Source of the DNA: a virus
Length of the DNA stretch: 26,530 bases
Reading direction: 5' to 3' (one strand)
Virus record (IMG/VR): IMGVR_UViG_3300012920_000218
Location: 1 to 26,530 of that record
Under the pieces are notes generated by a model that worked only from the letters and a program-made list of their open reading frames with translations, was not told where the DNA came from and made no database searches. This document shows positions 13,668 to 26,530 of the stretch, piece by piece; within the stretch, counting starts at the first letter, position 1; each line of letters begins with the position of its first letter. Made by a program: the position numbers and the translations under genes.

Positions 13668-14071
13668 TATAACCTAGTTGGTTCGAGAATAAAATTGACT
13701 GATTGATTTGGTGCGTTGAGACCAACAATATCATAAAATATGGTTACATCAACTGAGTTTTGATCTGGGACTGAATTAACATTCACATCTGTCAACCTTA
13801 CTCTTGGTTCAAAGTTTTTGATAACTGATTCAATCTCTGATTGAATTGGATCAACATAATCAGCATTTGCAAGTTCAAATAATGAACCGCTTATTCTAGT
13901 GCCTAATAATCTATTGAAAAAAATCTCTCCTAGATTAATGCGAACCAAATTCTGTACAGACCGCTTTATCGCATCTTCATTTTTTAGCACAAGAAGATCA
14001 TCCGTTACAGGATGTTTCTTAAAAGACAGAGAAATATCTTTGAATCCTTTTGAAAAAGTCTGTGCTGGCAC
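13667..14071 (-). CDS. 25: Baseplate wedge protein gp25 (gp25/IraD-like)
   Basis: At 134 aa it matches T4 gp25 (132 aa). The family core is clear: VQNLVRINLGEIFFNRLLGT, a SLFEL stretch, then a FEPRVRLTDV strand corresponding to the EPR motif of gp25-like wedge proteins, which contact the sheath-initiating part of the baseplate. It directly precedes gp6, the usual T4-like order in marine myophages. The start is GTG (14069-14071): an in-frame TAA at 14078-14080 leaves no other upstream choice, and the first ATG-type alternative would delete the conserved N-terminus. A T4-late-type promoter element sits about 20 bases upstream, so this is the first gene of the late operon. No strong Shine-Dalgarno sequence is visible. 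Confidence 0.95.
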   Translation of the reverse strand: MPAQTFSKGFKDISLSFKKHPVTDDLLVLKNEDAIKRSVQNLVRINLGEIFFNRLLGTRISGSLFELANADYVDPIQSEIESVIKNFEPRVRLTDVNVNSVPDQNSVDVTIFYDIVGLNAPNQSVNFILEPTRL

Positions 14072-14091: not shown

Positions 14092-14108
14092 TATTTATCA
14101 TTATTTAG
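14092..14108 (-). promoter_or_regulatory. T4-type late promoter element(s) for the gp25 operon
   Basis: Read on the minus strand this is CTAAATAATGATAAATA. The downstream GATAAATA (14092-14099) matches the T4 late -10 element TATAAATA at 7 of 8 bases; CTAAATAA (14101-14108) is a weaker second copy. Initiation 6-7 bases downstream would leave a leader of about 15 bases before the gp25 GTG. No sigma70-type -35 is required or seen. It lies just beyond the terminator of the preceding unit. Confidence 0.6.
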
Positions 14109-14111
14109 AGC

Positions 14112-14137
14112 AAAAAAAAGACCCTCTATTGAGGGTC
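14112..14137 (-). terminator. Rho-independent terminator overlapping the end of the 62-aa gene
   Basis: On the minus strand the sequence is GACCCTC-AATA-GAGGGTC followed by eight T. This is a perfect 7-bp stem (14131-14137 with 14120-14126), a 4-base loop and a U-tract (14112-14119). The stem contains the codons for the last residues and the TAG stop of the small gene, so hairpin and coding end are one piece of sequence. Confidence 0.9.
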
Positions 14138-14314
14138 ATCTTCATGTCCAAGGTATCTGACCTCTATTTCGTCAGGGTGTGGGAACCCTTCATTGTAATA
14201 ATCCTCTGCTAACTCCTGTACTTTATCCTCCATTTCTTCTTCTGTAATTGACTTGAACTCTAGTGATCCTTTGATGTATATGTCATACAATTCCATGGTC
14301 GTTATATTGATCAT
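14126..14314 (-). CDS. Small acidic protein of unknown function, 62 aa
   Basis: The family is not recognised. The protein is strongly acidic (ITEEEMEDKVQELAEDYY, then HPDEIEVRYLGHEDDPQ), with no signal peptide, membrane span or cysteine. The central stretch is probably helical and is followed by a short strand. It lies 9 bases downstream of the glycosyltransferase-like gene, so the two share the sigma70-type promoter at 15098-15126, and transcription ends at the hairpin that contains its stop codon. A second ATG six codons in (MELYDIYIKG, at 14294-14296) is an equally possible start; neither has an obvious Shine-Dalgarno sequence. Its pairing with a transferase and early-type promoter suggests a non-structural role. 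Confidence 0.75.
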   Translation of the reverse strand: MINITTMELYDIYIKGSLEFKSITEEEMEDKVQELAEDYYNEGFPHPDEIEVRYLGHEDDPQ

Positions 14315-14323
14315 CGAAAGTAT

Positions 14324-15076
14324 CTATATGATTCTAGTTTTCTCGTGACCGACTCTGCACTGTGGATCTATCCATATTTCATAACCTGCTTTTATCGCAT
14401 CAAGACAGAATGATACGTCTTCACCACACATATCTTGTACCTCACCTGAGTCAAAAACTTGCATTTGAGGAGCAAACCAAGGATACTTCATCTCTGCATT
14501 TTCAAATACACCTTTTTTGATAAGTAACCAACCAAATCCAGAATAGTCAACAGTGAATGGTTTACGTCTCTTGACAATACCATCAACCATCTCATGATTC
14601 ATCACACCACCATTTTCTTTGAAATCATCCTCTTCTAACCAATGTGCACATGATGTAGTCTTACCATCCTCTGTTGCATACCACCCACCTGCAATATCTT
14701 TATCCATCGCAAGAACACGATAGAAACTTTCATTGGTGAATACTATGTCACTATCAATCCATAATTGGTAATCATAGTTGAGTTTGCCATCCCAAGGTAA
14801 TTGATCAGGTCCTCGTAACACATTTGCACCTAGAACCTTACATCTAGCAAAGTTCACCATAGAACTATAGTCTTGTGCTATTTGTATATTTGCTCCGTTC
14901 TGCACCAACTCAAAGCAGAGTGATACGAAATTCTTTAGAAAGATATATGATACACCTCGACCAGGTAAACAAAATACAATACTTTTACCTTTGAGAAGTT
15001 CTTTTGCTTTTTCGATATCAAAAGCACCTTCTTTCGCAGTTGGTGATTTAGATACCACCTTGAATCCTTTAGCCAT
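14324..15076 (-). CDS. Glycosyltransferase-like protein (GT-A type), 250 aa
   Basis: Probably transfers a sugar from a nucleotide-sugar donor. A conserved segment reads YDYQLWIDSDIVFTNESFYR, giving a DSD (108-110) in the position of the metal-binding DxD of GT-A enzymes. A second block, CGEDVSFCLDAIKAGYEIW (218-235), has the GED expected for the acceptor/catalytic side, and a late His (VGHEKT, H244) could be a further metal ligand. No membrane span or signal peptide is seen, so it is likely cytosolic. It is led by a sigma70-like promoter whose start point leaves about 15 bases of leader, and followed by the 62-aa gene and a terminator, suggesting early expression separate from the late operon. 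Donor and acceptor are unknown. Confidence 0.8.
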   Translation of the reverse strand: MAKGFKVVSKSPTAKEGAFDIEKAKELLKGKSIVFCLPGRGVSYIFLKNFVSLCFELVQNGANIQIAQDYSSMVNFARCKVLGANVLRGPDQLPWDGKLNYDYQLWIDSDIVFTNESFYRVLAMDKDIAGGWYATEDGKTTSCAHWLEEDDFKENGGVMNHEMVDGIVKRRKPFTVDYSGFGWLLIKKGVFENAEMKYPWFAPQMQVFDSGEVQDMCGEDVSFCLDAIKAGYEIWIDPQCRVGHEKTRII

Positions 15077-15097: not shown

Positions 15098-15126
15098 ATT
15101 ATAACAGATTATATAGCGTCTATCAA
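15098..15126 (-). promoter_or_regulatory. Sigma70-type promoter for the glycosyltransferase unit
   Basis: On the minus strand: TTGATA (15121-15126), a 17-base spacer, and TATAAT (15098-15103). That is 5/6 and 6/6 matches to the bacterial housekeeping consensus at optimal spacing. The -35 and most of the spacer lie inside the last codons of the SGNH gene at 15109-15777. Expected start is near 15091, about 15 bases before the ATG at 15076. Confidence 0.8.
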
Positions 15127-15777
15127 CTCAATGATTTTATCTGCAATTATTTTGTGTGCTTTTGCGGTTGGATGTCCACCTTTGTGTCGCATACTGTAAT
15201 GATCTGGGTTTACTTCTTGTACTCCAAGAATATGTCTGTGCATTAGAATTGGATTATAATCACCCATCAGACTTCTCCAATATCCTTTCTTACGCACCTC
15301 TGCCCCTTCAGTGGAGTTTTGATAATATTGGAATGGTTTTGCTATAATAGGTTCATAATGATCTGCGATTATAGAAACATATTTCTGTCCTACACTTTTA
15401 CAAAATGAGTCAAACAAAAATATATTTTTCCATAGATTTTCACATCCCCATACATCGTTGTACATATTCAAGTAATATTGCTTTGCTAAAACATAATCTC
15501 TTCTCTGTGGTGTCCACAATTCCAGTTGTGCAAGACGAGTTATATACTCTATTCTTTGATGCACAGTGAATTGCATGACAACAATATCAGGTTTATTTTT
15601 TTGTAAGTAAGTTATTGTTCTTCTTACAATAGCATCATTACTAATACCTTTCTCTGATAAGTTGACATGTCTTACACCATAGTGATCAGACACAACTGTG
15701 CTAAAACGCTCGGTTTGTCTATGTACAAGTTCATCACCCCATGTGATGCTGCAACCACTAAAACACAGTGACATCAT
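15109..15777 (-). CDS. SGNH/GDSL-hydrolase-like protein, copy 1 (222 aa)
   Basis: The N-terminus SLCFSGCSITWGDEL fits SGNH block I, with Ser in a G-C-S context instead of G-D-S. GISND supplies the Gly/Asn of block III, and GGHPTAKAHKIIAD near the C-terminus is the catalytic-His block. The usual Asp three residues before that His is missing (K-G-G-H), so the active site may be a Ser-His dyad. SGNH proteins act as esterases or acyltransferases, for example on acetylated sugars; substrate here unknown. It is one of three paralogues in the window (others near 21738 and 24691) sharing GCS.TWG.EL, an M/AQFTV..R.EY segment and LWKN. Two adjacent ATGs are possible starts, overlapping the carbamoyltransferase stop by 17-20 bases. 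Confidence 0.75.
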   Translation of the reverse strand: MMSLCFSGCSITWGDELVHRQTERFSTVVSDHYGVRHVNLSEKGISNDAIVRRTITYLQKNKPDIVVMQFTVHQRIEYITRLAQLELWTPQRRDYVLAKQYYLNMYNDVWGCENLWKNIFLFDSFCKSVGQKYVSIIADHYEPIIAKPFQYYQNSTEGAEVRKKGYWRSLMGDYNPILMHRHILGVQEVNPDHYSMRHKGGHPTAKAHKIIADKIIELIDAI

Positions 15778-17134
15778 ATTTCATCTCAAATAATTTTGCA
15801 TCTCCGATTGTATTTACCATGGGTTTTCCCTTGATATTCAAAGATGTGTTCAACAATACAGGACAACCAGTGCGTTCATACCAACACTCTAGAATAGGTC
15901 TTAGAATGCTCTCTGAGTCCTCTGGAACTGTTTGTACCCTAGCAGATCCATCGACGTGTATACAGGCAGGTATCGCCCTCTGCTGCTTACATTTATAAAC
16001 ATATGACATATACCTTGAATGTTTAGGCATATCAAAAAAATCCTGTGCATGTTCTTCTAACACAGCAGGTGCAAAGGGTCTGAACTTGTCCCTTTTCTTG
16101 ATTTCGTTTACTAGGTCTTTGGTCTCTGCTTGTCTCGGATCCGCCAATAGACTTCTATTACCGAGAGCACGAGGACCATACTCAGCACGACCATTTGCAA
16201 CACCCACGACTCTTTTTTCGAGGAGTGCATCCACTACTCTCCTTGGATCACATAACTTTTGTATATTATATCCTAAGTATGGACTAAAGGCAACCTTGCC
16301 ACCATAGGCAAGACACGCTGCTCCTAGAGCACCCCCTGCGTCACCAGGACAAGGCATAATCCACAGGTTATACATTTCCCTCAATCCAGTGTTTACCACA
16401 CAGTTGAGAGCGACTCCTCCACCATAGCATATGTTCTTACTATATCGTGATGCTATATGAAATATCTCGTTTAGTTCTAATTGCAATATTCTCTCTGCAC
16501 TCTTTGCAACATCACATTTATCGTAATTACCTAGTCTGATACCTTTGTGATTATTTCTGCGTAATGCTCTCTCAACCACATTCAAGTTGACAGGGTGACC
16601 GTATGCTGCCATACCCATAAAGATGTATTCTTCATCAAGTGGACGCAAACCTGCCCACTTTGTCAACGCAGAATACCATAATCCGATAGATTGCGGATAC
16701 CAGCGTGACCACACCTTTTTGTAACACGCATGCCCTTTGATATACTTCGCTGTCCATATTGATGTGCAATCCCATTCACCTATACTATCAACCACCACAC
16801 ACACTGCTTCATCAAAAGGTGATGTCTGAAACGCTGCTGCAGCGTGTGACTTATGATGACTATGATATTCAGTAGGTTTCAGCGATAGGTGTCTTTCTCT
16901 ATACCACGCCTTCTGACCTGCAAAGAACTGTCTAGTCCTTTTCAACCATGGTCTTTCATAAAACGCTATCTTACTATCTGTAGATAGAAGTTTCGCTGTA
17001 GACGCTGCTGTGACATCAAGATGTTTGTCATGCTTTATTTTTGAGTATCTCTCTGAGTGTGCTGCATAACAAATCCTACCATTGTTGATAACTGCTACTG
17101 CAGCATCGTGAAACCCTTCACTAAATCCAATCAC
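15758..17134 (-). CDS. Carbamoyltransferase, NodU/CmcH family (458 aa)
   Basis: Transfers a carbamoyl group from carbamoyl phosphate through carbamoyl-AMP to a hydroxyl, often on a sugar. N-terminal Kae1-like domain: FHDAAVAV (H9), HSHHKSHAAAAF (91-102, metal-binding His), VVVDSIGEWDCTSIW, MGMAAYGHP, YGGGVALNC (237-245) and CPGDAGGALGAA. C-terminal YrdC-like/NodU domain: GRAEYGPRALGNRSLLADPR (315-334), KFRPFAPAVLEE and PVLLNTSLNIKGKPMVNT (425-442). All characteristic motifs are intact. It is shorter than many bacterial members (about 550-600 aa), mainly through compact linkers. The start is GTG (17132-17134), 14 bases inside the end of the preceding gene; no nearby ATG would keep the FHDAA motif. 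It lies in a chain with SGNH and sulfotransferase-like genes, suggesting tailoring of the same molecule. Confidence 0.92.
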   Translation of the reverse strand: MIGFSEGFHDAAVAVINNGRICYAAHSERYSKIKHDKHLDVTAASTAKLLSTDSKIAFYERPWLKRTRQFFAGQKAWYRERHLSLKPTEYHSHHKSHAAAAFQTSPFDEAVCVVVDSIGEWDCTSIWTAKYIKGHACYKKVWSRWYPQSIGLWYSALTKWAGLRPLDEEYIFMGMAAYGHPVNLNVVERALRRNNHKGIRLGNYDKCDVAKSAERILQLELNEIFHIASRYSKNICYGGGVALNCVVNTGLREMYNLWIMPCPGDAGGALGAACLAYGGKVAFSPYLGYNIQKLCDPRRVVDALLEKRVVGVANGRAEYGPRALGNRSLLADPRQAETKDLVNEIKKRDKFRPFAPAVLEEHAQDFFDMPKHSRYMSYVYKCKQQRAIPACIHVDGSARVQTVPEDSESILRPILECWYERTGCPVLLNTSLNIKGKPMVNTIGDAKLFEMKYDVTVF

Positions 17135-18167
17135 GTAATCTGTTTCGCCTCCTCATATCTCTCATATCTCTAATCATAACATATTCTTTCGCTATTTTCT
17201 CAAATTCTTCTCGTTCGGGATAATCGCCTGGATGTGTGGCATTTCGTGGTATTTCATTCTTTTCAAAACCAAAGACCTCTTTATAGTCATCTCTATCCAT
17301 ATTGAAGTATACAGGTTCTATTCCATTGTGTTGTAGATACTTTTCAATTCTTCTTATATTTCTTACAATACCATCAAGATGACTCCATATGAGTCTTTTA
17401 TCTTTCTTATATGTCTTTATAACGTCACGCTTTTTATATCTCTTGAGTTTGCTTGCAAAACAGTCAACTAAGTTCTCTTTGTATGGAATTACATTTTTTC
17501 TTGATCGATATAATTCCAGAACATATATTTCTAATGGTTCTACTGTTTCTACTTTAGGATAACCAAGCATATACTTACCCATGAGTGAAAAAGGATTGAA
17601 CAATATATCAACATCTATTAGTTCATCTACAAGAGGTCTAACAAGTTGAGTATTTGTTGCAAGATACTTTTCTAAAAATGTCGAAAGATAATTTGCACCT
17701 GGTGATACTGGAAAATGTTTTTGCCTTTCTCTTATATACTTGTCAGTAAAGAATACTTCCACAGGATCTTTACCTTTCATGAATTCATCAGGTGGTCTTC
17801 TATCACTCACGCTTCCAAAATAATCTACCATCAGGTCACCACCCACTTCACTCGTATTAGAAAAGAGTTTAGTATTATCGATAGGACTCTTTTCTACATC
17901 TCGCAAGAATGGATGGACATCATCGTATACAACGTCAGATATTTGTCCAAATGTTGTTTTAGTTTTTATTGGTGTCTCTACCACTGATTGCCCAGTTCTA
18001 ACCAAATATGACTTTTCGATTCTTCGTTTATAATTGTCAGGGTCGTGCCACTGCTTATAGAAGTAAAATCTACCTCCAGTCTTTGTATATGTCTTTCTGT
18101 TGATCTCAATAAGTTGCATCAAGTGCATCTTACCCATGTTGGGTATTGCCCAATAATTAATCTTCAT
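17121..18167 (-). CDS. Unassigned protein in the tailoring cluster (348 aa)
   Basis: No confident family match. It is a soluble, basic protein with no signal peptide or membrane segment. Visible landmarks are an N-terminal strand then WAIPNMGKMHLMQL (a G-K turn at a position where sulfotransferases have their 5' phosphosulfate loop), a middle helix-rich region with NPFSLMGKYMLGYP, a very basic stretch (KLKRYKKRDVIKTYKKDKR), and a C-terminal YFNMDRDDYKEVFGFEKN followed by HPGDYPEREEFEKIA. It overlaps the carbamoyltransferase start by 14 bases and follows the sulfotransferase-like genes, so it is likely co-transcribed. A remote sulfotransferase or other nucleotide-dependent transferase is possible, but the RDP..R..S 3'-phosphate motif of its neighbours is absent. 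The C-terminus ends RRRNRLRDWI. Confidence 0.75.
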   Translation of the reverse strand: MKINYWAIPNMGKMHLMQLIEINRKTYTKTGGRFYFYKQWHDPDNYKRRIEKSYLVRTGQSVVETPIKTKTTFGQISDVVYDDVHPFLRDVEKSPIDNTKLFSNTSEVGGDLMVDYFGSVSDRRPPDEFMKGKDPVEVFFTDKYIRERQKHFPVSPGANYLSTFLEKYLATNTQLVRPLVDELIDVDILFNPFSLMGKYMLGYPKVETVEPLEIYVLELYRSRKNVIPYKENLVDCFASKLKRYKKRDVIKTYKKDKRLIWSHLDGIVRNIRRIEKYLQHNGIEPVYFNMDRDDYKEVFGFEKNEIPRNATHPGDYPEREEFEKIAKEYVMIRDMRDMRRRNRLRDWI

Positions 18168-18246
18168 CTTCGTAGATGTATGGGTCTTGGCGACGCAACT
18201 TCCAGAGTTTATACTCGCCTTTTATCCACTGCCATAGTCTCTTCAT
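18157..18246 (-). CDS. Possible 29-aa basic/aromatic small protein overlapping two genes
   Basis: An ATG at 18244-18246 opens a 29-codon frame ending TAA at 18157-18159. It reads MKRLWQWIKGEYKLWKLRRQ then DPYIYEDED, with four Trp/Tyr-type aromatic positions, a basic amphipathic first half and an acidic tail; this looks more like a selected protein end than random sequence. It overlaps the sulfotransferase-like gene 3' end by 38 bases in another frame and the start of the 348-aa gene by 11 bases, and it fills the otherwise unexplained gap 18168-18208. It could be a separate small gene, or the alternative C-terminus produced by a frameshift at the end of the sulfotransferase-like gene. Function unknown. 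Confidence 0.4.
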   Translation of the reverse strand: MKRLWQWIKGEYKLWKLRRQDPYIYEDED

Positions 18247-19159
18247 ACTTACCCCATTCGTTAGGTATATATCCAAAAGTTTTTTGGAATTCAATGTATA
18301 TATCTCGTCTTTTCTGCACACAATAATCATACATGATTTTATCTATATCTTTTGTATCTGAGTATTGGTCTTGAAGGTATTTGTGTTTTGGATAATTTGA
18401 TCCCATATTCGGATAGTAAACGTTTTCGTGGACTTTCACAATATCATAATCTAAAAAATCTGACAAATAAGATAATTCTTGTTTTTGTGTAACGGGGTTA
18501 TCTAACTCCTCCATTACAACTAATCTAACATTGTCCTTGCCCCAAACGCTGCTGTGATTCTTATATATCCGTGAGTAATCGATATATTGATCCCATTCGT
18601 GAAATTCTATAGATTCTCTTGGGTTTTTGTTTACATGTCTGTTATATGCAGAGAAAGCACGACGAACTGGATCACGGGCGATAATAGTAACTTTGACATC
18701 AAAATACTCCAATATACTATCTTTTATGCTAAGTAGAAACTCTTTGCTCAAATCTGCATTGTGATTTGAGAAATCAGCAACTGCTTGATAATCGTGCTTG
18801 ATATTGTTCCAATGTTTGCGATAATACCTGATATATTTTTCAATACTCATTTTTGAGTGAAAAAAATCATTTTCTTCCTCTTTTGTCCACAATCCTTTGA
18901 TATACTTGGAATCTACTGTCAATACAGTTGGTTTATTAGTATATCCCGATTGCAATCTGTTTATTCTCTTTTCGTTCGTTGCTCCGCTTTTATCAAGATT
19001 GTTTATACACATATCTGCGTCTTTCTCCAATCTGTAGAGATATTGGTGTTCTTTGCAGTGTCCAGAGTGTGCATACATGTTATCCCAACATAATGTGTAA
19101 TGAAAGGGAGAACTTGCAGAAAATGCTGTGCCAGCACTAAGAAGTAATTTTATTGCCAT
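18209..19159 (-). CDS. Sulfotransferase-like protein A (316 aa)
   Basis: Sulfotransferases move a sulfuryl group from PAPS to a hydroxyl or amine. The 3'-phosphate motif is clear: ARDPVRRAFS (161-170), with Arg and Ser in register with classical enzymes. The N-terminal 5'-phosphosulfate loop aligns as SAGTAFSASSP (8-18), but the usual basic residue of this loop is Phe13. Family-specific blocks shared with its four paralogues are YAHSGHCKE (29-37), VADFSNHNADL, VVMEEL, NVYYPNMGS (246-254) and YLQDQYSD. The C-terminus of the shared region, FGYIPNEW, is followed here by a 14-residue tail not seen in the others, overlapping the possible 29-aa gene. The ATG overlaps the end of gene B by 10 bases. 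Acceptor unknown; cytosolic by absence of a signal. Confidence 0.75.
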   Translation of the reverse strand: MAIKLLLSAGTAFSASSPFHYTLCWDNMYAHSGHCKEHQYLYRLEKDADMCINNLDKSGATNEKRINRLQSGYTNKPTVLTVDSKYIKGLWTKEEENDFFHSKMSIEKYIRYYRKHWNNIKHDYQAVADFSNHNADLSKEFLLSIKDSILEYFDVKVTIIARDPVRRAFSAYNRHVNKNPRESIEFHEWDQYIDYSRIYKNHSSVWGKDNVRLVVMEELDNPVTQKQELSYLSDFLDYDIVKVHENVYYPNMGSNYPKHKYLQDQYSDTKDIDKIMYDYCVQKRRDIYIEFQKTFGYIPNEWGKYEETMAVDKRRV

Positions 19160-20037
19160 TGTCTAGGAATTTCTCCAAATTTTGATTTGTATTTTTCATA
19201 TAACCAGAATAATTTGTTTCTACCGTACGTAAGATCATCATCTGACAAGTCTTGTAGGTCAGCACTCCACTGATCTCTCAATCCCTGTATCTCAGGTCTT
19301 TTAGTTCCTCTTTCTGGATAATATACGTTATCATGCATCTTTTCTATCTTATGACCAATAAAATCAGATAGTGAGGATGGATCTGCCCATACTTCTTCCA
19401 TAATTACAGGATACACCTTACTAAACGCTTTTGACCAAGTATTATATACATCTACGTAATCAGGGACATTATATGAGGGAGTATCCAGTTGTGACTTCCA
19501 AAATGAGATGCTATCTGGATATATTGCCTTTATATTACGCCATTTGAGTTTTTTTGCTGAATCTCGTATTTTCCATTGCGATGGTGCGTCCACATTGTTT
19601 GTATAGTGTCTATAAAAGGTTGAGAGTTCAGAATATGACCTTCTTACAGGATGTCTCCATATTGTTGTTACTCTTACGTCAAATTCTTCTTCTAATCTTG
19701 GTGCAATCTCTAATAGAAACTTGAGAGGTAAATGTGTGTTGCTATTTGAGAAATCACAGACACCTTTGTACCCGTCTTTCAAATGACTCTTGATATATTG
19801 AATATACCAACCAAGTGTTGTGTTTTTACGAACAAAGTCATGTCCTCGGTGTTTATGTTCTGTATGCCAGTAATAATTTGCATGAACTGGTTTATATTTC
19901 TTCTCATACAAGAAATACAGCACATTGCACTCCGTTGAGGATCCCTTCAGACAATATCCATTCTGTTCAAAGGTATAACAGAGTGGTTTCGTAGCAGACC
20001 ACCCTACACCTGCGTTTATGTGCAATACAGGTTTCAT
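19150..20037 (-). CDS. Sulfotransferase-like protein B (295 aa)
   Basis: Second of three tandem minus-strand paralogues. I start it at the ATG at 20035-20037 (MKPVLHINAGVGWSATKP), because this aligns residue for residue with the MKPTLLLNSG start of protein C and gives the compact ATGA overlap with the stop of C; an ATG three codons upstream is the alternative. The 5' loop is NAGVGWSATKP with Trp13 where a Lys/Arg is usual, though a Lys follows at 17. The 3'-phosphate motif is WRHPVRRSYS (127-136), where His replaces the usual Asp. CDFSNSNTHL, MEEVWAD, NVYYPERGTKRP and LRDQWSAD match the paralogues, and the protein ends FGEIPRQWQ. It lacks the HSG..K block of A and C. Likely function: sulfuryl transfer to an unknown acceptor. 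Confidence 0.75.
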   Translation of the reverse strand: MKPVLHINAGVGWSATKPLCYTFEQNGYCLKGSSTECNVLYFLYEKKYKPVHANYYWHTEHKHRGHDFVRKNTTLGWYIQYIKSHLKDGYKGVCDFSNSNTHLPLKFLLEIAPRLEEEFDVRVTTIWRHPVRRSYSELSTFYRHYTNNVDAPSQWKIRDSAKKLKWRNIKAIYPDSISFWKSQLDTPSYNVPDYVDVYNTWSKAFSKVYPVIMEEVWADPSSLSDFIGHKIEKMHDNVYYPERGTKRPEIQGLRDQWSADLQDLSDDDLTYGRNKLFWLYEKYKSKFGEIPRQWQ

Positions 20038-20861
20038 TTCATCCATGCCTCAGGTATTCGACCAAAAGTCTTGGCAAAATTTGAATATACGTGATCCATA
20101 TGCTCTAAACAAAACATTTGAGTGTCAGAATCAAGATCCTCAACATCTGATGACCACTGATCCTTCAAGTATGGGTAATGTGGTGCCCTGCTGCCCATAT
20201 CAGGGTAATACACGTTTGGATGTATCTTAGAAAACGGAAAATCAAGAAACTCTGCTAATGGTTGTGTGTCACCTGCCCAAAACTCTTCCATAATGATAGG
20301 ATGCACCTTTTCCTCACCCCAAACGTTACAATGTCTTGTATAGATGTCAGAGTAGTAAGCGTTTGGTTCTAGTCTTCCTACACATACTCTTTTTATATAA
20401 TCTTTTGGACTTGCAGGTTCATTTTTGTTTGCAACAGAGAACAATCTACGTATAGGGTCTCTAAAAACCATGATTACCTTTATATCAAACACATCAAGCA
20501 ATTTGTCTTTGATACTCATCATAAAGTCCTCAGTCAGACAAGCATTTTGATTTGAGAAGTCAGCAACTGCTTTATATTCAGTCAAATGCTCAGATAACGA
20601 CTTATAATAAGAAATATACTTTTCTATTGACCTTTCACCATCTAAAATCTCTTTACCATGATAAATTGTTAGTTCTGGTGGTTTTTTTCCTGTAGTATCT
20701 GGTTTGAACGGAATCTTTATACCTTCTTGTAGAGAATATAGGTAAAAATCCTCTTTACATAGTCCTGTGTGTGCATATTTGTTTGTCATGCACAATGTGA
20801 AGTGTAAAGGTGACGTTGCAGAGAACGCAGTGCCAGAATTTAGTAATAAAGTTGGTTTCAT
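20034..20861 (-). CDS. Sulfotransferase-like protein C (275 aa)
   Basis: First of the tandem trio. N-terminal loop NSGTAFSATSPLHFTL (8-23) has Phe13 in place of the loop Lys/Arg. The next block YAHTGLCKED (29-38) is shared with A. The 3'-phosphate motif is FRDPIRRLFS (133-142). Other family blocks are VADFSNQNACL, IIMEEFWAGD, NVYYPDMGSRAP and LKDQWSSDVEDL, with the usual end FGRIPEAWMK. A and C are the closest pair by eye and probably arose by tandem duplication. Its ATG (20859-20861) is only 10 bases from the start of the oppositely oriented gene D, so any promoter for it must lie inside D. The trio is likely translated as a coupled unit with the 348-aa and carbamoyltransferase genes downstream. 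Confidence 0.78.
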   Translation of the reverse strand: MKPTLLLNSGTAFSATSPLHFTLCMTNKYAHTGLCKEDFYLYSLQEGIKIPFKPDTTGKKPPELTIYHGKEILDGERSIEKYISYYKSLSEHLTEYKAVADFSNQNACLTEDFMMSIKDKLLDVFDIKVIMVFRDPIRRLFSVANKNEPASPKDYIKRVCVGRLEPNAYYSDIYTRHCNVWGEEKVHPIIMEEFWAGDTQPLAEFLDFPFSKIHPNVYYPDMGSRAPHYPYLKDQWSSDVEDLDSDTQMFCLEHMDHVYSNFAKTFGRIPEAWMK

Positions 20862-20873
20862 AGATAAATTTAT
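20862..20873. promoter_or_regulatory. 10-base divergent gap with palindrome ATAAATTTAT
   Basis: The gap between the start codons of sulfotransferase-like genes C (minus) and D (plus) is 20862-20871. It holds a perfect palindrome, ATAAATTTAT (20864-20873), that reaches into the D start codon. Both strands therefore read (G/C)ATAAATT, 6/8 to the T4 late element, but initiation from it would fall inside the coding regions. It could be an operator or simply AT-rich sequence. Confidence 0.25.
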
Positions 20874-21780
20874 GCGAGTTCCCTTGATTATTGGTGCAGG
20901 TACAGGATGGAGTGCGACAAGTCCACTACATTTGACATTACAGTGTGCAAATAAGTGTAGTCATGCTGGAATTTTAAAAGAAGACCATTTGTTATCACAT
21001 ATTCACTCAAAAAATGCATGGAAGTGGAGAAAACAATGGTATGAAAAACTTATTACAGATTCTATGGTTCCCGTCTGGGATAAACCATATGGAATGAAGA
21101 ACAAATATGCTTTTCATCAAAATATTGACGAAATTCATGAATTATTCCAAAAACCAACGTTAGAAACCTATATCAAATATTATACTCGACATTATCACAG
21201 AGTCAAACACGAATATTCCTATGTTCACGACTTTTCTAATAGTAATGCTTCTCTTCCTTTGGATTTTTTACAAAAAATTGCTCCAGAACTAAGAAAATAC
21301 TTTAAAATCAAGGTTTTGATAATTTTTAGAGATCCAGTTCGCAGATTATACTCAGAATTGTCACATCATTACCAAAATGACGAAAATTTACGTCAAAAAT
21401 ACCCAACTTCCAAGGATTATTTCTGGAGTTATCTTAAGATGGGGAATTATAGCATAAATTGTGAGTTTGTCAAGCGAATAAAGTATTATAAGTCAATTTT
21501 TAGTACCACAACTATCGTTTCAGAGGATCTTTGGGGTGGTAAGAACGATGCTTTAGCAAAACTTAGCAATTTTTTACAGTTCGACATCAAAAACCTATGG
21601 CCGAACTGCTATTATCCTGAAATGGGAACAAAAGCACCCAAGCATGAATACCTTCAAGACCAATGGCACTCAGATATGGAGGACTTGACCCATGATGACA
21701 TGGTTTATGGTCGAAAATTCCTTGCAAAATACTATGATCAGTGGTATAATGAGTTCGGAACAACGCCTTGGAGGTGTTGA
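20872..21780 (+). CDS. Sulfotransferase-like protein D (302 aa)
   Basis: Plus-strand paralogue, divergent from C. The frame is open upstream to 20767, but I start at ATG 20872-20874: MRVPLIIGAGTGWSATSPLH aligns exactly with the starts of B and C, and the upstream part is merely antisense to the conserved N-terminus of C. The 5' loop has Trp13 for Lys/Arg; the 3'-phosphate motif FRDPVRRLYS is at 152-161. CSHAGILKED, HDFSNSNASLPLDFL, SEDLWGG, NCYYPEMGTKAP and LQDQWHSDMEDL follow the family pattern, and it ends FGTTPWRC. By motif it sits between B (DFSNSN) and C. The 3' end overlaps the second SGNH gene on the other strand by 43 bases. Role: probable sulfuryl transfer, acceptor unknown. Confidence 0.78.
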   Translation: MRVPLIIGAGTGWSATSPLHLTLQCANKCSHAGILKEDHLLSHIHSKNAWKWRKQWYEKLITDSMVPVWDKPYGMKNKYAFHQNIDEIHELFQKPTLETYIKYYTRHYHRVKHEYSYVHDFSNSNASLPLDFLQKIAPELRKYFKIKVLIIFRDPVRRLYSELSHHYQNDENLRQKYPTSKDYFWSYLKMGNYSINCEFVKRIKYYKSIFSTTTIVSEDLWGGKNDALAKLSNFLQFDIKNLWPNCYYPEMGTKAPKHEYLQDQWHSDMEDLTHDDMVYGRKFLAKYYDQWYNEFGTTPWRC

Positions 21781-22313
21781 GCGATCAAATCGTGACCTTG
21801 TTTGTTGGGGTGACCTGTTACGTAGTTCTCTGGACTGCCATCAGGGGTGCCGATCAGGTCATATAAGGTCACCATATCACTCCAAGGTGACAATTTTCTA
21901 AAAATGCAGTCATTTTTCACGTTTTTTTCGGAGTCTTCACCCGATCTCCAAAAATAGTGTGGTATGTCTTGCAAATATTGATCTAAAATATACACATTCT
22001 TCCATAAATTCATCATTCTCATCTCTTGAGAGTCCAAATATTTGTAAAATACTCGTGCCTCAGTGTTTTTTGTCCATGGAGTGAGGTTTTTCCAGTCATC
22101 TTTGTAGTACATAACACGTCTAGGAACCGTAAATTGTGCTACAATGAAGTCAATCTTTGGAGTTTTGTTCACAAACTCAATAGTTTTCATCACCATCATG
22201 TCATTTGATATACCACACTCAGCAATATTGGGATGAGACTTGGAAAATCTGTCTTGAAGACGGTTTTCTAATTCATCTCCCCACGTCATACTACAACCAG
22301 TAAACAAAATCAT
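21738..22313 (-). CDS. SGNH/GDSL-hydrolase-like protein, copy 2 (191 aa)
   Basis: Starts best at ATG 22311-22313 (MILFTGCSMTWGDELENR); a TTG two codons upstream is less likely. Nucleophile Ser8 is in G-C-S-x-T-W-G; GISND gives block III; TGHPNKQGHDLIA near the end gives the His block, again without the Asp three residues before His (V-T-G-H). It shares AQFTVPRRVMYY and LWKNVYILD with copy 1, and is the shortest of the three. Likely an esterase or acyltransferase on a small or glycan-linked ester; unproven. Its start codon overlaps the start codon of the divergent aldolase gene by two bases (CATG at 22311-22314), and its 3' end runs 43 bases under gene D, so it has no intergenic DNA of its own. 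Confidence 0.72.
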   Translation of the reverse strand: MILFTGCSMTWGDELENRLQDRFSKSHPNIAECGISNDMMVMKTIEFVNKTPKIDFIVAQFTVPRRVMYYKDDWKNLTPWTKNTEARVFYKYLDSQEMRMMNLWKNVYILDQYLQDIPHYFWRSGEDSEKNVKNDCIFRKLSPWSDMVTLYDLIGTPDGSPENYVTGHPNKQGHDLIAQHLQGVVPNSLYH

Positions 22314-23079
22314 GAACAAAAAATTAAAAACTTACTGTATAAGAGCATATCTATCTAGTGGTCGTGCGTCAATAGGTGGTTGGATGCAAATTCCTTCACC
22401 AGAAATTGCTGAAATTGTAGGAAACTCGGATTTTCATTGGGTTGCAGCAGATTTAGAACATGGATCTATAGGAATAGACCATCTACCAAATATATTTCGA
22501 GCACTTGAACTCAATAATACTCTTCCATTTGCCAGAGTGACCAATGAATTGCAAGCAGTTCGTGCAATGGAGGCAGGGGCAGGTGGTATTATAATCTCTA
22601 ATGTAGAATCTAGAGACGATGTAGAGAAAATATACTCAAGTATTCAATATCCATCTAGAGGGAAGAGAGGGGTTGGTTACAATCGAGGAAACTGTTACGG
22701 TAAAAAATTCAATAATGATCTTGACGATGATCCAATTCTAGTTGGTATGATAGAATCTCAGAATGCTGTCAACAACATTGATGAGATACTAGACTGTAAT
22801 AAACTTGATGCAGTTCTCATAGGTCCTTATGACCTATCAGCGTCATTCAAAGTGACTGGGCAGTTCGAGAGTCACTTTTTGAGAGGGATTATCAAACAAA
22901 TAAAAGACACATGTATACGTAAGAATATCGCAGTTGGTATTCATGTCGTGCAACCAGACAGAAATAAACTCAAAGAAGCAATTGAAGAAGGATACACGTT
23001 TATACCATACGCTACTGATGGAACACTTCTTTCACATGGTCTTGATAATATTTCCAACAATGACGAAACGCTCCTCTAG
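22312..23079 (+). CDS. HpcH/HpaI-type class II pyruvate aldolase (255 aa)
   Basis: Members reversibly cleave 2-keto-3-deoxy-type acids to pyruvate (or similar keto acid) plus an aldehyde, using a divalent metal. The (beta/alpha)8 signature is clear: IGGWMQIPSPEIAEI, then WVAADLEHGSIG with His50 as the likely base, FARVTN with Arg75, EAGAGGIIISNVES, RGVGYNRG, MIESQNAV with metal ligand Glu148, and IGPYDLSAS with metal ligand Asp174. These positions correspond almost exactly to His45, Arg70, Glu149 and Asp175 of E. coli HpaI, so the active site looks intact. A Phe-His pair replaces the usual Phe-Asp before the strand ending DLEHG. Context suggests it makes or trims an unusual keto-sugar acid for the tailoring pathway, but the substrate is unknown. 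It overlaps the convergent 2OG-like gene by its last 40-plus bases. Confidence 0.88.
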   Translation: MNKKLKTYCIRAYLSSGRASIGGWMQIPSPEIAEIVGNSDFHWVAADLEHGSIGIDHLPNIFRALELNNTLPFARVTNELQAVRAMEAGAGGIIISNVESRDDVEKIYSSIQYPSRGKRGVGYNRGNCYGKKFNNDLDDDPILVGMIESQNAVNNIDEILDCNKLDAVLIGPYDLSASFKVTGQFESHFLRGIIKQIKDTCIRKNIAVGIHVVQPDRNKLKEAIEEGYTFIPYATDGTLLSHGLDNISNNDETLL

Positions 23080-23637
23080 ATTTTTACGTTCATCGACCCC
23101 ATGATACAGATAAGATGGGAAGACCATAAGATCTCCTGACTTCTGATGAACTGGGTATAATTTTTTATCACCACTTGTAAAGTAAAAACACTTCTGTTCA
23201 GGAACCTTCACAAAGTGCACCCATGAAAGCATTTGTTTTGGATGACTGAAATGATTGTGCTCCTTGATATAACAAGGTACACCTTCTTTTGCTAACTGCC
23301 CCCAGATACTACTATAAGAGAATATACCGTTTCCATAAAGACGTATTTTCTTCAAGATCTCTGTCAACTTTGGTGTATATGTTTTGAGTAACTCTGTATC
23401 CTGATATATTCCTTCGTCAGTCTTATAATAACCTGTCCAGTGTTTACCATACATGGTATCTTTGACCTGCTTGTGTTTTTCGATACCTTTGATAATATCT
23501 TGCTTTGAGATATTCTTACGACGATCTGGCATGATGTCTTCACTATCATATAAACCACGAAAGAAGAAGTCATCACAATACTTCTTGAGAAAGTAGTCTT
23601 CTTGACCATGCACCCAGTTCTCTATGTGGATATACAT
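23032..23637 (-). CDS. 2OG-Fe(II) oxygenase/cupin-like protein (201 aa)
   Basis: A start at ATG 23635-23637 gives the one-base TAATG overlap with the upstream oxygenase stop; a TTG five codons earlier is the alternative. The C-terminal half has the double-stranded beta-helix pattern of 2OG-Fe(II) oxygenases: KEHNHFSH (metal pair H127-x-H129), WVHFVKVP, GDLMVFPSYLYHGVD with distal H179, and ERFVIVGNI with Arg190 at the 2-oxoglutarate position. The canonical H-x-D is H-x-H here, so a three-His site or different chemistry is possible. The N-terminal half is acidic/basic helical with no recognised domain. It is the last of three consecutive oxygenase-like genes and ends 48 bases inside the convergent aldolase gene. 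Likely hydroxylates a sugar, protein side chain or metabolite; unknown. Confidence 0.65.
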   Translation of the reverse strand: MYIHIENWVHGQEDYFLKKYCDDFFFRGLYDSEDIMPDRRKNISKQDIIKGIEKHKQVKDTMYGKHWTGYYKTDEGIYQDTELLKTYTPKLTEILKKIRLYGNGIFSYSSIWGQLAKEGVPCYIKEHNHFSHPKQMLSWVHFVKVPEQKCFYFTSGDKKLYPVHQKSGDLMVFPSYLYHGVDERKNLEERFVIVGNIIKTM

Positions 23638-24134
23638 TACTTGTGTCCCCAAATTTGAACTGCACGTCTTGGTGGTGCATTATACATCAAAGGAGTGACA
23701 CTATGCATTTCTTTTTGTACGATCACTAACTTCCCTGCTTCTGGAATCTCTGCACGTATCTCTCCTTGATCATTTTGCCAGAGAAACAACCCACCCCACC
23801 TTTTGTCGAAGTTATTAAGATAGAGAGTCGCTCCGAATACGTAGTCCTCGTCACCGTGCCACTGAACACCTGAGTGTGGCAACCAGTAGTGATAGTTGAG
23901 AGTGTACTTGTCCTGTTTCACCAGTGGAAGGTGTTTACGAATCGCCCCAAGTATCTTGAGTTTCATATTGTCTTGGACTTTCGCTGCAAGACAAGTGCCA
24001 GCGTATCCGTCATACAGATGAGGATTCCAATTGTTATTGGAGAATGTCCACTTCTCCTGTGATCGAATTGAATCGACTTCTCCATTCAAAGAGTCGATCA
24101 AATCCTTTGAGATGGCATTCTGTATGATCTTCAA
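23637..24134 (-). CDS. 2OG-Fe(II) oxygenase, prolyl-hydroxylase-like (165 aa)
   Basis: The compact beta-helix domain has all key residues: QWHGDEDYVFGATLYLN gives H93-x-D95, MHSVTPL gives the distal H144, and RRAVQIWG gives Arg157 for 2-oxoglutarate. WGGLFLW fits the strand after the first metal pair. These enzymes use Fe(II), O2 and 2-oxoglutarate to hydroxylate an unactivated C-H, and are common in marine T4-like phages. The start is TTG at 24132-24134, making a 4-base TTGA overlap with the upstream stop; the next in-frame ATG would remove a third of the protein. The tight chain with two related genes and an SGNH gene suggests co-expression and a shared substrate. Confidence 0.85.
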   Translation of the reverse strand: MKIIQNAISKDLIDSLNGEVDSIRSQEKWTFSNNNWNPHLYDGYAGTCLAAKVQDNMKLKILGAIRKHLPLVKQDKYTLNYHYWLPHSGVQWHGDEDYVFGATLYLNNFDKRWGGLFLWQNDQGEIRAEIPEAGKLVIVQKEMHSVTPLMYNAPPRRAVQIWGHK

Positions 24135-24694
24135 CGGTAATCCACAAATCGATTGTCAATTGGACCTGTGCTATCCCATGCCTTGATATTGATTGATCTT
24201 CTGACACCACTGGTCACAGGTGCAACCGCATGCAATTCGTTTTGATCGATAATTCCCATCATACCAATGTGAGGTTTGGAGAAATGTTGAGGTAAGGAAT
24301 GATCTCTCGTCTCGCTATGGTATTCATGATAACTATTCTCCTCTTTATAATAATACTCACCACCTTCATAGTCATCATTCAGATAAATGTTGACAGTGTA
24401 TAACCATGGATGATCATGTAAGTGATCATTATATCCTTTTGAGTATAACTGATATCGAACTTCAAAGAGAACAGCACCGACATCTGGAAGATGAGGTCGA
24501 ATTGTTTCTACGATCTCTTTTCCATGTTCAATTGACAGTCTTTGAAACAACTTACTATGATGAGCACTTCCGTTCATCTTATCCATGATCTCTTTGCTGT
24601 ATCTCTTGAATTTCTTTTCTTTGATCCAGAGATCGATCTCCTCATTACATCTCTGTATTTGATTTGAAGAGAGTGGGTTGTCTACGAATATCAT
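24131..24694 (-). CDS. 2OG-Fe(II) oxygenase-like protein (187 aa)
   Basis: The fold pattern is recognisable: FEVRYQLYSKGYNDHLHDHP, then LYTVNIYLNDDYEGGEYYY, then NELHAVAPVTSGVRRSINI. The distal His is H155 and the 2-oxoglutarate Arg is R165/R166. The first metal pair is unusual: the segment D90-H-L-H-D-H95 contains no strict H-x-D, only H-x-H (H91/H93 or H93/H95) plus an adjacent Asp94. Either ligand spacing has shifted or the site is three-His. GMMGIIDQNELHAV places the distal His as in prolyl-4-hydroxylase-like enzymes. Its ATG overlaps the SGNH copy 3 stop by 4 bases (ATGA), and its own stop overlaps the next start by 4. Confidence 0.72.
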   Translation of the reverse strand: MIFVDNPLSSNQIQRCNEEIDLWIKEKKFKRYSKEIMDKMNGSAHHSKLFQRLSIEHGKEIVETIRPHLPDVGAVLFEVRYQLYSKGYNDHLHDHPWLYTVNIYLNDDYEGGEYYYKEENSYHEYHSETRDHSLPQHFSKPHIGMMGIIDQNELHAVAPVTSGVRRSINIKAWDSTGPIDNRFVDYR

Positions 24695-25365
24695 TTTGCC
24701 ATCCTCACAATTCTGTCTGCGATCATACGATGACCCTCTTTCGTCGGATGACCATAATGATGATAAGGTAATAACAAATCTGCTATCTTACGATGACCTT
24801 CTTTCGTCGGATGATAATGACCCTGTATCTTAAGAGACTTGTCTAATAACAAATCAAATGTTTGGTTTGTCCACTTGTTGATTGAAGTCAAAATCAAAGG
24901 CACATTGTTGACCTGACAGTGATTCCGAATTGTCTGCACTTGTATACACTCCTTTGTATCAAAGTATTCTTCACTCATGACACTCTTATAGTAAGTAGTC
25001 CAGAATTCAGCATGTTCTTCAAATTTTTCATTGAGTCTCTTTATCGACCCATTCAGCGAAACCAGTTTTCCCTTAAATAACCACTTATGATAATTTGACT
25101 TTGGATTGACTCTTATCCAGTCTGGTTCATGATAGTATTCTGTTCTAGTCGGAAAGGTCATCTGTATCACCGCTAAGTCATATTCTTGAATATCATTCTC
25201 AACCATTAGATTTCTGACGATTCGATCATTTGACCCACCACATCTTGCAAGGTTAGTTTCTTCTGCCCCCAGTTCATCACACACTAACTTAGAATATCTC
25301 TCTTCCTCTTTATTTTCTAACTCTTCACCTTTTGTCCATGAACAACCATCAAAGTAAATTTTCAT
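24691..25365 (-). CDS. SGNH/GDSL-hydrolase-like protein, copy 3, with duplicated His block (224 aa)
   Basis: The start MKIYFDGCSWTKGEELENKE has the G-C-S nucleophile context (Ser9) shared by the other two copies; GGSND is block III; AVIQMTFPTRTEYYH matches their QFTV..R.EY segment. The C-terminus is odd: the catalytic-His block HPTKEGHRKIAD is present twice, 21 residues apart, from an in-frame 63-bp tandem duplication. Either copy could supply the active-site His. As in the paralogues, no Asp stands three residues before the block His. The protein is the longest of the three partly because of the duplication. First gene of the minus-strand oxygenase chain, 26 bases from the divergent sulfotransferase-like gene E. 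Confidence 0.75.
   Translation of the reverse strand: MKIYFDGCSWTKGEELENKEEERYSKLVCDELGAEETNLARCGGSNDRIVRNLMVENDIQEYDLAVIQMTFPTRTEYYHEPDWIRVNPKSNYHKWLFKGKLVSLNGSIKRLNEKFEEHAEFWTTYYKSVMSEEYFDTKECIQVQTIRNHCQVNNVPLILTSINKWTNQTFDLLLDKSLKIQGHYHPTKEGHRKIADLLLPYHHYGHPTKEGHRMIADRIVRMAK
24716..24814. repeat. 63-bp-period in-frame tandem duplication in SGNH copy 3
   Basis: Segment 24716-24751 and segment 24779-24814 are 36 bases long each and differ at three positions (24721, 24725 and 24736 in the first copy). The offset is 63 bases, exactly 21 codons, so the frame is kept. The shared core includes TTTCGTCGGATGA on the plus strand, encoding the HPTKEGHR block. Confidence 0.92.
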
Positions 25366-25391
25366 AACTATATGTGTTTGTAACTATATGT
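25365..25391. repeat. Direct repeat TAACTATATGT x2 between divergent genes
   Basis: TAACTATATGT occurs at 25365-25375 and again at 25381-25391, 16 bases apart, filling almost the whole gap between SGNH copy 3 and sulfotransferase-like gene E. On the minus strand each copy gives TATAGT, a plausible -10-like hexamer, but no good -35 is seen. It may be a regulatory repeat or a small slippage duplication. Confidence 0.5.
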
Positions 25392-26381
25392 ATGAGTAAA
25401 CCAAAAATGATACTCTTTTGTGGGTGGGGTTGGGCAGCAACTTCTCCTCTCATTTACACTCTTCAGCGTAATTTGAAGTATGCTCATTTTGGTTACACTA
25501 AAACTTTCAAAATCCTGTCATCACCGAAGTGGAAAAATAATGAACTGACTTATAAACGATCTGATTCTAACAACGCTGTCAGGATTTATGAAAAACACTC
25601 TCAAGGAATTTGGGAGAACTGGGAGAAGGGAAAACCAGGCACTCATCATATGAATCATACGATTGATCTTGAACCATTGAGAGACTTTCCGATGAGTCAC
25701 CTCGCTTCACTTGTCACTGGTGACCCGTCAATCTCAAAGTACATGGATTTTTTTCATGCACTTCATGATCATGTGATTCTCAAAGGTTATAAGTCTGTAG
25801 GTGATTCTCACATGGGTCGAAGACATGAAAATAGAGCACACCACAAACAAGTCAGATTCACAAAAGGTTCTCAAAGTAAAATTGAGTCAAACAAACAATA
25901 TATTGAGACACTCAAGTCTGAATTTGATGTCAAGGTTCTTCTCATTGCAAGAGATCCGATTCGTCGTGCTTTCTCAAATTATTGTAATTGGTTGACCAAG
26001 AATCAAAAACAACCTCTTCCGTTACCCATTCATGACTATGTGTATGACCTCGATAGTATTCGTAGATTTTTCAAAGATAATGTCTATGTCACTGTCATGG
26101 AAGAATTATGGGAGGGAGACGGTGTAAAGGGTCTATCTGAATTTTTAGAACATCCCGTTCATAAATCAGACCTATGGGAAAACTTGTATGCACCAGACAG
26201 AGGTCACCTGATTGAACATGATAAAGATGTCCCCTGTCAAGCGGTTGGACAAGGCATACTCGAACTGACTCCAGAAATATATTGGCACTACAGAGAAAAA
26301 TATGATTTTGTTTACGAAAAATGGAAGAGAACTTTTGGAAGTCTACCATTGTACTGGGGAGAACCAATTGAATATAGTTGA
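25392..26381 (+). CDS. Sulfotransferase-like protein E (329 aa)
   Basis: I start it at ATG 25392-25394 (MSKPKMILFCGWGWAATSP); a GTG six codons upstream is the alternative. It is the most divergent paralogue. The 5' loop reads CGWGWAATSPLIYTL with Trp14 at the Lys/Arg position; YAHFGYTKTF (30-39) matches the YAH.G..K block of A and C; the 3'-phosphate motif ARDPIRRAFS (186-195) is standard. The middle is expanded by about 50 residues (LVTGDPSISKYMDF, then GDSHMGRRHENRAHHK), and the DFSN.NA.L block is absent. TVMEELWEGDG is kept, YYP.MG appears only as LYAPDRG, and the end is FGSLPLYWGE. It may act on a different acceptor from A-D. The -35 of a strong promoter overlaps its stop codon. Confidence 0.75.
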   Translation: MSKPKMILFCGWGWAATSPLIYTLQRNLKYAHFGYTKTFKILSSPKWKNNELTYKRSDSNNAVRIYEKHSQGIWENWEKGKPGTHHMNHTIDLEPLRDFPMSHLASLVTGDPSISKYMDFFHALHDHVILKGYKSVGDSHMGRRHENRAHHKQVRFTKGSQSKIESNKQYIETLKSEFDVKVLLIARDPIRRAFSNYCNWLTKNQKQPLPLPIHDYVYDLDSIRRFFKDNVYVTVMEELWEGDGVKGLSEFLEHPVHKSDLWENLYAPDRGHLIEHDKDVPCQAVGQGILELTPEIYWHYREKYDFVYEKWKRTFGSLPLYWGEPIEYS

Positions 26382-26406
26382 CAAGTATATGAGAAGGTGT
26401 TATACT
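26378..26406 (+). promoter_or_regulatory. Near-perfect sigma70-type promoter at the right edge
   Basis: TTGACA (26378-26383, 6/6), a 17-base spacer, and TATACT (26401-26406, 5/6). The -35 overlaps the TGA stop of gene E (26379-26381). Expected start is near 26413, reading into the GC-richer edge sequence. This is one of the two strongest host-type promoters visible in the window. Confidence 0.75.
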
Positions 26407-26530
26407 TTATTTGTTGGACGCAACATGGGAGTGACTGAATAAACTTACTGGCAACTGCTGGTTAAGGTGATGAGACACAGGTGGTGCTGCTTCGAGAGAA
26501 GAACCGATCAACCAATCGGGTCTCAGGCAA
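26407..26530. other. GC-richer edge segment, possible structured RNA or partial gene
   Basis: About half G+C, against roughly 35-40% around it, and directly downstream of the strong promoter. On the plus strand it can form CTTC-GAGA-GAAG (26490-26501, GNRA-type loop), CCGAT-CAACCA-ATCGG (26504-26519), and an enclosing GAGAC/GTCTC pairing (26472-26476 with 26520-26524), which together make a three-way junction. On the minus strand a frame is open from the edge to a TAA at 26407-26409 (about 40 residues, containing LEAAPPVSHHLNQQLPVS). A plus-strand frame from ATG 26470-26472 is also open to the edge. I cannot choose between an RNA and a partial protein; the promoter and pairing favour an RNA. 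Confidence 0.3.

Follow-up and report, generated by a model that had tools for sequence, protein, structure and literature searches.

An Island of Predicted Sulfotransferase, Carbamoyltransferase and SGNH Genes as a Probable Cassette for Glycan Tailoring in a Clade of Uncultured Cyanomyoviruses

Introduction

The 26,530-base IMG/VR record IMGVR_UViG_3300012920_000218, which was analysed at its full length and is referred to here as the window, is a fragment of a T4-like cyanomyovirus according to its gene content and PHROG matches. Next to its baseplate genes lies an island, about 11 kb long, of genes for predicted tailoring enzymes, which raises the question of whether these enzymes form one system, and on what they would act. 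An initial annotation had read the island as a candidate system for decorating a glycan or virion surface, and had listed one NodU/CmcH-type O-carbamoyltransferase (CarbT), five sulfotransferase (ST)-like paralogues, three SGNH/GDSL esterase- or acyltransferase-like proteins, three 2-oxoglutarate (2OG)-Fe(II) oxygenase-like proteins (OG1 to OG3) and one HpcH/HpaI aldolase (ALD). All of its open reading frames were recovered in place and the inventory was borne out, with OG3 below the Pfam cut-off; the conserved island gene orf348 was absent from its list. The analysis reported here suggests that the island is probably a cassette for glycan tailoring in a clade of uncultured cyanomyoviruses, with the CarbT, SGNH and ST genes as its core.

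Results

Eighty loci were retrieved by gp25 alone, not by the tailoring genes, and the 27 in which 5.5 kb or more of upstream sequence precedes gp25 were counted; some of these contigs are near-duplicates, which limits their independence. CarbT and SGNH genes were each present in 27/27 and an ST in 26/27, while orf348 (12/27), the aldolase (3/27) and OG2 (2/27) were patchy. The initial annotation had proposed a search for such co-occurrence and had regarded independent scattering of the families as evidence against a joint function. No such scattering was seen for the CarbT/SGNH/ST core. The aldolase and the 2OG oxygenases, however, were scattered, so the full enzyme list does not represent one system. 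The gene order CarbT-SGNH-GT-orf62-gp25-gp6-gp7, in which GT is the neighbouring glycosyltransferase-like gene, was nearly constant, and loci carried between 0 and 6 ST copies over 10 kb. The main CarbT subfamily was represented by 21 distinct sequences from contigs that have the baseplate slot, that of the window among them. The ratio of non-synonymous to synonymous substitution rates (dN/dS) against orthologues was 0.04-0.19 for 11/15 genes from GT to ST5 (OG2, OG3, SGNH3 and ST5, which have no close orthologue, were left out). The tested island genes are thus under purifying selection, which argues that the island is not a chance assemblage.

The family assignment of CarbT is clear, and its activity is predicted. 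The protein has the N-terminal kinase-like domain and the C-terminal carbamoyltransferase domain of its family, and both Pfam profiles matched far over the cut-off (PF16861, E 4e-54; PF02543, E 8e-32). The nearest PDB relatives, which included novobiocin carbamoyltransferase (E 4e-47) and TobZ of tobramycin (E 7.5e-35), modify hydroxyls of sugars or polyketides. The HHKSH, VDSIGE and PGDAGG motifs align with decarbamoylnovobiocin carbamoyltransferase, and the HHxxH histidines and the aspartates are presumably the metal ligands of NodU/CmcH carbamoyltransferases. A scan for the carbamoyltransferase returned one contig of a metagenome-assembled genome, with neither gp25 nor GT.

A second CarbT subfamily, 35% identical to that of the window, fills the same baseplate slot, beside STs, in two loci (L042 and L066). 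These proteins are ~77% identical to the CarbT of L058, which again adjoins an ST, and in L071, a similar locus, an ST-carbamoyltransferase pair lies beside radical SAM, nucleoside diphosphate (NDP)-sugar epimerase and DegT aminotransferase genes. As a divergent CarbT subfamily is again paired with an ST, the association is more than shared descent.

Profile and model evidence indicates that ST1 to ST5 are sulfotransferase-fold paralogues of the glycan/tyrosyl sulfotransferase-like type, with catalysis predicted only. A single ST used as the query recovered all five in their own contig, with the others 30-45% identical to the first. The single-sequence Pfam matches were sub-threshold; the profile of a 60-member alignment matched the sulfotransferase 3rnl in the PDB (E 2e-7), as well as heparan sulfate 3-O-sulfotransferases (3-OST). 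The AlphaFold model of ST3 had a predicted local distance difference test (pLDDT) score of 92.5, and its top Foldseek matches were all sulfotransferases (3rnl, E 1.3e-8; 3-OST; NDST; TPST). The 3'-phosphate-binding Arg...Ser motif is kept in the family (R134 in 59/60 members, S142 in 59/60), and E37 and E192 are nearly invariant. A pattern-based scan, which reaches only close motifs, found no cellular homologue in 84,980 species genomes. Among 50,697 phage records, the family was present solely in Marine virus AG-345-D19, a sorted particle genome from an extracellular sort gate plate (PMC6122165), whose contigs carry the same island layout, split in two.

Further ST copies lie beside tail-fibre genes in L015, L031 and L068. 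The copy in L015 overlaps a tail-cluster gene and has no promoter of its own, and those in L068 and L031 adjoin fibre and neck genes. Single STs of the same family are also located in the replication module of L049, L052, L078 and L080, distant from tail genes. Another P-loop family (GPQGSGNHLWSKIFSLH) was noted next to the fibre-locus STs (L068 7149-7784 and 12199-12879; L031 9036-9734 and 10553-11194); it had no Pfam or PHROG match and is possibly a second sulfotransferase family. L068, a 192-kb phage record with psbA, also has a gene for a DctP-type solute-binding protein (8967-9923) among its ST and fibre genes.

In the three SGNH-like genes of the window, the GCSxTxG, GxSND and HPxxxGH blocks are invariant. 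The family keeps blocks I (GxS), III (GxND) and V (His): its 51-member alignment showed G8, S10, N47 and H208 to be invariant and H202 to be present in 50/51, and Pfam Lipase_GDSL was matched by 8/51 members. The C-terminal active-site block of SGNH3 is duplicated (GHYHPTKEGHRKIAD ... YGHPTKEGHRMIAD). The SGNH and 2OG assignments are predictions from motifs and weak-to-moderate profiles, and the metal/2OG residues of OG1 to OG3 were read by eye. The aldolase showed a full-length family match and resembled HpcH/HpaI aldolases in the PDB (E 4e-24). The AlphaFold model of orf348 had a pLDDT of 72.6 and a weak Foldseek match to Stf0 (E 1.0, probability 0.21). A profile comparison with the ST family showed no similarity, and no match turned up among the 50,697 phage records. 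An assignment of orf348 as a sulfotransferase was thus not upheld, and it is possibly another, Stf0-like, putative member of that class.

In T4-like phages, sigma70-type promoters mark early-type units and late promoters mark late ones. The sigma70-type promoter in front of GT matched 11-12 of 12 positions in 51/67 distinct loci (CarbT 1/39, gp6 0/51), and 11 of 12 positions in P-SSM2. A second promoter, antisense inside ST4, is predicted to head ST3-ST2-ST1-orf348-CarbT-SGNH1; it recurs at the equal position in several relatives, which may partly reflect the ST4 coding sequence. The hairpin and T6 of an intrinsic terminator, which would end the island/GT/orf62 transcript, were found in 36/45 distinct loci, and a late motif preceded gp25 in 45/45. 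These sigma70-type promoters, the terminator and the late promoter thus place the island in an early-type unit apart from the late baseplate genes, and the promoters suggest that its expression would be early. A single operon with the baseplate genes was rejected on the grounds of the terminator and promoters. The initial annotation had argued from proximity to the baseplate operon; the island does adjoin gp25, but the argument is weakened by the terminator and late promoter that separate them. ST4 is divergent from ST3, with ~10 bp between their starts (taking ATG 20872 as the start of ST4). The alternating-strand genes either overlap or have starts separated by ~10 bp, in head-to-head and tail-to-tail arrangements (20861-20872, 21738-21780, 22312-22319 and 23032-23079), so there is no room for intergenic promoters at these junctions.

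The island proteins had no membrane segment in a hydropathy scan. The absence of polymerase, flippase and export genes reported in the initial annotation held within the window, which has no transmembrane genes either. The glycosyltransferase-like gene that it had placed next to the island is present, but GT is a core gene which cultured cyanomyoviruses also keep without the island. GT carries a DxD motif (WIDSDIV), weakly matches annotated glycosyltransferase PHROGs, and gave no PDB match. Its identity ranges over 79-94% between relatives, and three cultured phages show 76-79%. The cultured phages P-SSM2, S-SSM7 and S-CAM9 keep GT-gp25-gp6-gp7. The C-terminus of gp6 is Ser/Thr-rich and mucin-like (residues 652-710, 11538-11714; TSTTSSTTTTTTTSSSSGYGY). 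This tail is common but not universal among the relatives, and gp6 is shorter in P-SSM2, S-SSM7 and S-CAM9. It was rejected as a required glycan target, with 14/47 contigs listed without the tail yet with island genes.

The right edge of the window carries a cyanophage-type manA RNA, which was not in the initial annotation (Table 1). Such RNAs have been reported close to mannose/fructose metabolism genes (PMC2864571). Full copies were identified in L017 (2005-2189) and L037 (17410-17596), both near orf348-like paralogues. Relatives with the ST family carry psbA; two of these have two consecutive Photo_RC genes, as expected for psbA-psbD, and the psbA of the one relative compared was closest to Synechococcus phage genes.

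Table 1. Positions of the island genes, transcription signals and flanking features in the window.
Feature	Position	Strand	Assignment and evidence
gp25 + gp6 + gp7-like baseplate gene (2,767 aa)	3232-14071		PHROG
gp25 + gp6	11535..14071	(-)	Baseplate wedge genes; PHROGs; late unit adjoining the island
Late promoter motifs	14092..14108	(-)	T4-type, CTAAATA and ATAAATA; 5' of gp25
Terminator	14120..14137	(-)	Intrinsic; between orf62 and gp25
orf62	14126..14314	(-)	Small conserved gene 3' of GT; phrog_3252
GT	14324..15076	(-)	Glycosyltransferase-like; core cyanomyovirus gene; phrog_1574, E 5.7e-114
GT promoter	15098..15126	(-)	Sigma70-type, TTGATA-17-TATAAT, extended -10; ~50 nt 5' of GT
SGNH1	15109..15777	(-)	Predicted SGNH/GDSL-type esterase or acyltransferase; adjoins CarbT; blocks I, II/III, V
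CarbT	15758..17134	(-)	NodU/CmcH-type O-carbamoyltransferase; overlaps SGNH1 and orf348
orf348	17121..18167	(-)	Conserved island protein
ST1	18209..19159	(-)	Sulfotransferase paralogue
ST2	19150..20046	(-)	Sulfotransferase paralogue
ST3	20034..20861	(-)	Sulfotransferase paralogue, the modelled one; AlphaFold, Foldseek
ST4	20767..21780	(+)	Sulfotransferase paralogue; likely true start ATG 20872
Promoter inside ST4	21446..21473	(-)	Perfect sigma70 consensus, TTGACA-16-TATAAT; antisense
SGNH2	21738..22319	(-)	Predicted SGNH; motif blocks
ALD	22312..23079	(+)	HpcH/HpaI aldolase, accessory; HpcH_HpaI, E 1e-23
OG1	23032..23652	(-)	2OG-Fe(II) oxygenase-like, accessory; PF13759, 30.5 bits (cut-off 27); phrog_81, E 3e-22
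OG2	23637..24134	(-)	2OG-Fe(II) oxygenase-like, accessory; PF13640, 29.9 bits (cut-off 27); HGD...H...R motif
OG3	24131..24694	(-)	2OG-Fe(II) oxygenase-like, accessory; PF13640, 23.8 bits (below cut-off 27)
SGNH3	24691..25365	(-)	Predicted SGNH; duplicated C-terminal GHxHPTKEGHRxIAD block
ST5	25374..26381	(+)	Sulfotransferase paralogue, most divergent
Sigma70-like promoter	26378-26406		Just 5' of the manA RNA
manA RNA	26412..26530	(+)	RF01745, 112.3 bits (gathering cut-off 55.2); cut at the window end

Discussion

If the island is a glycan-tailoring cassette, we infer that soluble cytosolic enzymes, made from the early-type promoters, would act on one shared sugar acceptor. The ST enzymes would add sulfate from host 3'-phosphoadenosine-5'-phosphosulfate (PAPS) to its hydroxyls, CarbT would add carbamoyl groups from host carbamoyl phosphate to hydroxyls of the same acceptor, and the SGNH enzymes would add or remove acyl groups. 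The neighbouring core GT probably builds or attaches the acceptor sugar, the expanded ST and SGNH paralogues may serve several positions or acceptors, and the aldolase and the 2OG oxygenases would be accessory. The same three chemistries meet in Nod factor decoration, in which sulfate (NodH sulfotransferase), carbamoyl (NodU carbamoyltransferase) and acyl groups are placed on one sugar by soluble enzymes; however, the island has no chitin-oligosaccharide synthase, and its sulfotransferase family differs.

Several observations weigh against a joint glycan-tailoring role. The Lys/Arg of the 5'-phosphosulfate loop (PKSGT/PRSGT type) is replaced by Trp/Phe in the STs in a hand alignment, the loop reading GxGWSATxPL, although the conserved K36-E37 pair might stand in for the lost residue. 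In the 51-member SGNH family, the catalytic Asp of DxxH is not conserved three residues before H202, so the enzymes may act as esterases or as transferases. The contigs used for co-occurrence represent a single gp25 clade (gp25 69-89% identical to that of the window). Lone STs of the same family are found in the replication module, as in L049 and L052. The slot 5' of GT is variable in cultured phages, where it holds small hypothetical genes or 2OG oxygenases, and may thus collect unrelated cargo. At this locus, the transcription signals do not show the shared unit or timing with virion genes that would be expected for a virion-glycosylation system, and the evidence on the target conflicts, with early-type promoters on the one hand and tail-gene neighbours on the other.

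With regard to the target, glycans on tail or fibre proteins are tentatively and slightly preferred, because of the tail-gene neighbours and the soluble enzymes. Host envelope glycan precursors, for which the early-type promoters and the sugar-nucleotide neighbours at other loci argue, are a possible and slightly less favoured target. The corresponding host-surface explanation shares its chemistry with the virion one and differs in the target: early enzymes would decorate cytosolic lipopolysaccharide (LPS) or exopolysaccharide precursors, masking receptors against superinfection or altering the cell surface. This explanation, which we consider somewhat unlikely, is consistent with the sigma70-type promoters and terminator that set the island apart from the late baseplate unit, with the ST-CarbT pair of L071 beside its NDP-sugar epimerase, DegT aminotransferase and radical SAM genes, with the manA RNA at the island edge and its link to mannose/fructose metabolism, and with the LPS gene clusters known from cyanophages (PMC3037559). 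However, no membrane acyltransferase, flippase or polymerase is nearby in the window, STs are repeatedly placed in tail-fibre clusters, and early expression is compatible with action on late virion proteins. A more elaborate version of the virion target is improbable: a combinatorial sulfation/carbamoylation code, in which lineage-own sets of up to six or more STs with CarbT and SGNH would decorate each lineage's own tail or fibre glycan, tuning adsorption to cyanobacterial surfaces or escape from them.

The island could also be a hypervariable insertion site 5' of GT that holds separately useful enzymes with different substrates. In cultured cyanophages this slot is indeed occupied by small unrelated genes or by 2OG oxygenases, the aldolase, 2OG and orf348 genes are patchy, the strands alternate, and the ST number ranges between 0 and 6 over 10 kb. 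Such a cargo site is nevertheless unlikely, given that the core trio is found in 26/27 unselected contigs in near-fixed order at the GT end, and that STs are recurrently paired with two divergent carbamoyltransferase subfamilies. A point in favour of DNA hypermodification, in which the carbamoyltransferase and other enzymes would act on hydroxymethylated bases, is that some phages use carbamoyltransferases of the NodU/CmcH type to modify their DNA. No member of the thymidylate synthase/dCMP hydroxymethylase family was found in seven records (including those of 192 and 172 kb; positive controls used), which are possibly incomplete, and the nearest sulfotransferases modify glycans, proteins and small molecules. 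DNA modification is thus a very improbable role for the island.

Phage sulfotransferases and carbamoyltransferases are each already known singly. Carbamoyltransferases have been recorded in a few T4-like cyanophage genomes (PMC3037559). These cyanophage proteins (T4-GC 303/721/1350; PHROG 1601), such as that of S-SSM5, are of the NodU/CmcH family like CarbT, and in S-SSM5 the gene is accompanied by 2OG oxygenases and lies within a few kb of a fibre gene. They are, however, ~30-38% identical to CarbT, longer, at another genome site and without this ST family. The sulfotransferase fold is likewise known in marine phages (OM43 phages; the Synechococcus phages S-SRM01 and S-SCSM1; P-SSM7), where the function of the genes has been called unclear (PMC10580990); those proteins are distant from the STs (12-17% identity in fold matches), and that account does not describe multi-paralogue arrays together with CarbT and SGNH. 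The LPS clusters of P-SSM2, S-SM2 and S-SSM7 are also cyanophage glycan genes (PMC3037559), but they are biosynthetic and located near hli03 or phoH, whereas the island consists mostly of decorating enzymes and adjoins gp25. Mycobacteriophages provide a precedent for virion glycosylation, with glycans at the C-termini of the capsid and tail tube (Freeman 2023, via PMC12619734); this case concerns other phages, and sulfation and carbamoylation are not mentioned in the account given there. No description of a clade-wide fixed ST, CarbT and SGNH combination was found in a literature search of incomplete coverage.

A whole marine phage clade thus keeps STs in a fixed partnership with CarbT and SGNH, under selection, and this partnership provides a concrete substrate-class hypothesis and a defined gene set. 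We know of no sulfated phage glycoproteins so far. If the virion target is true, such glycoproteins would be new; if the host-surface target is true, the island would define a route by which receptors are masked in ocean cyanobacteria.

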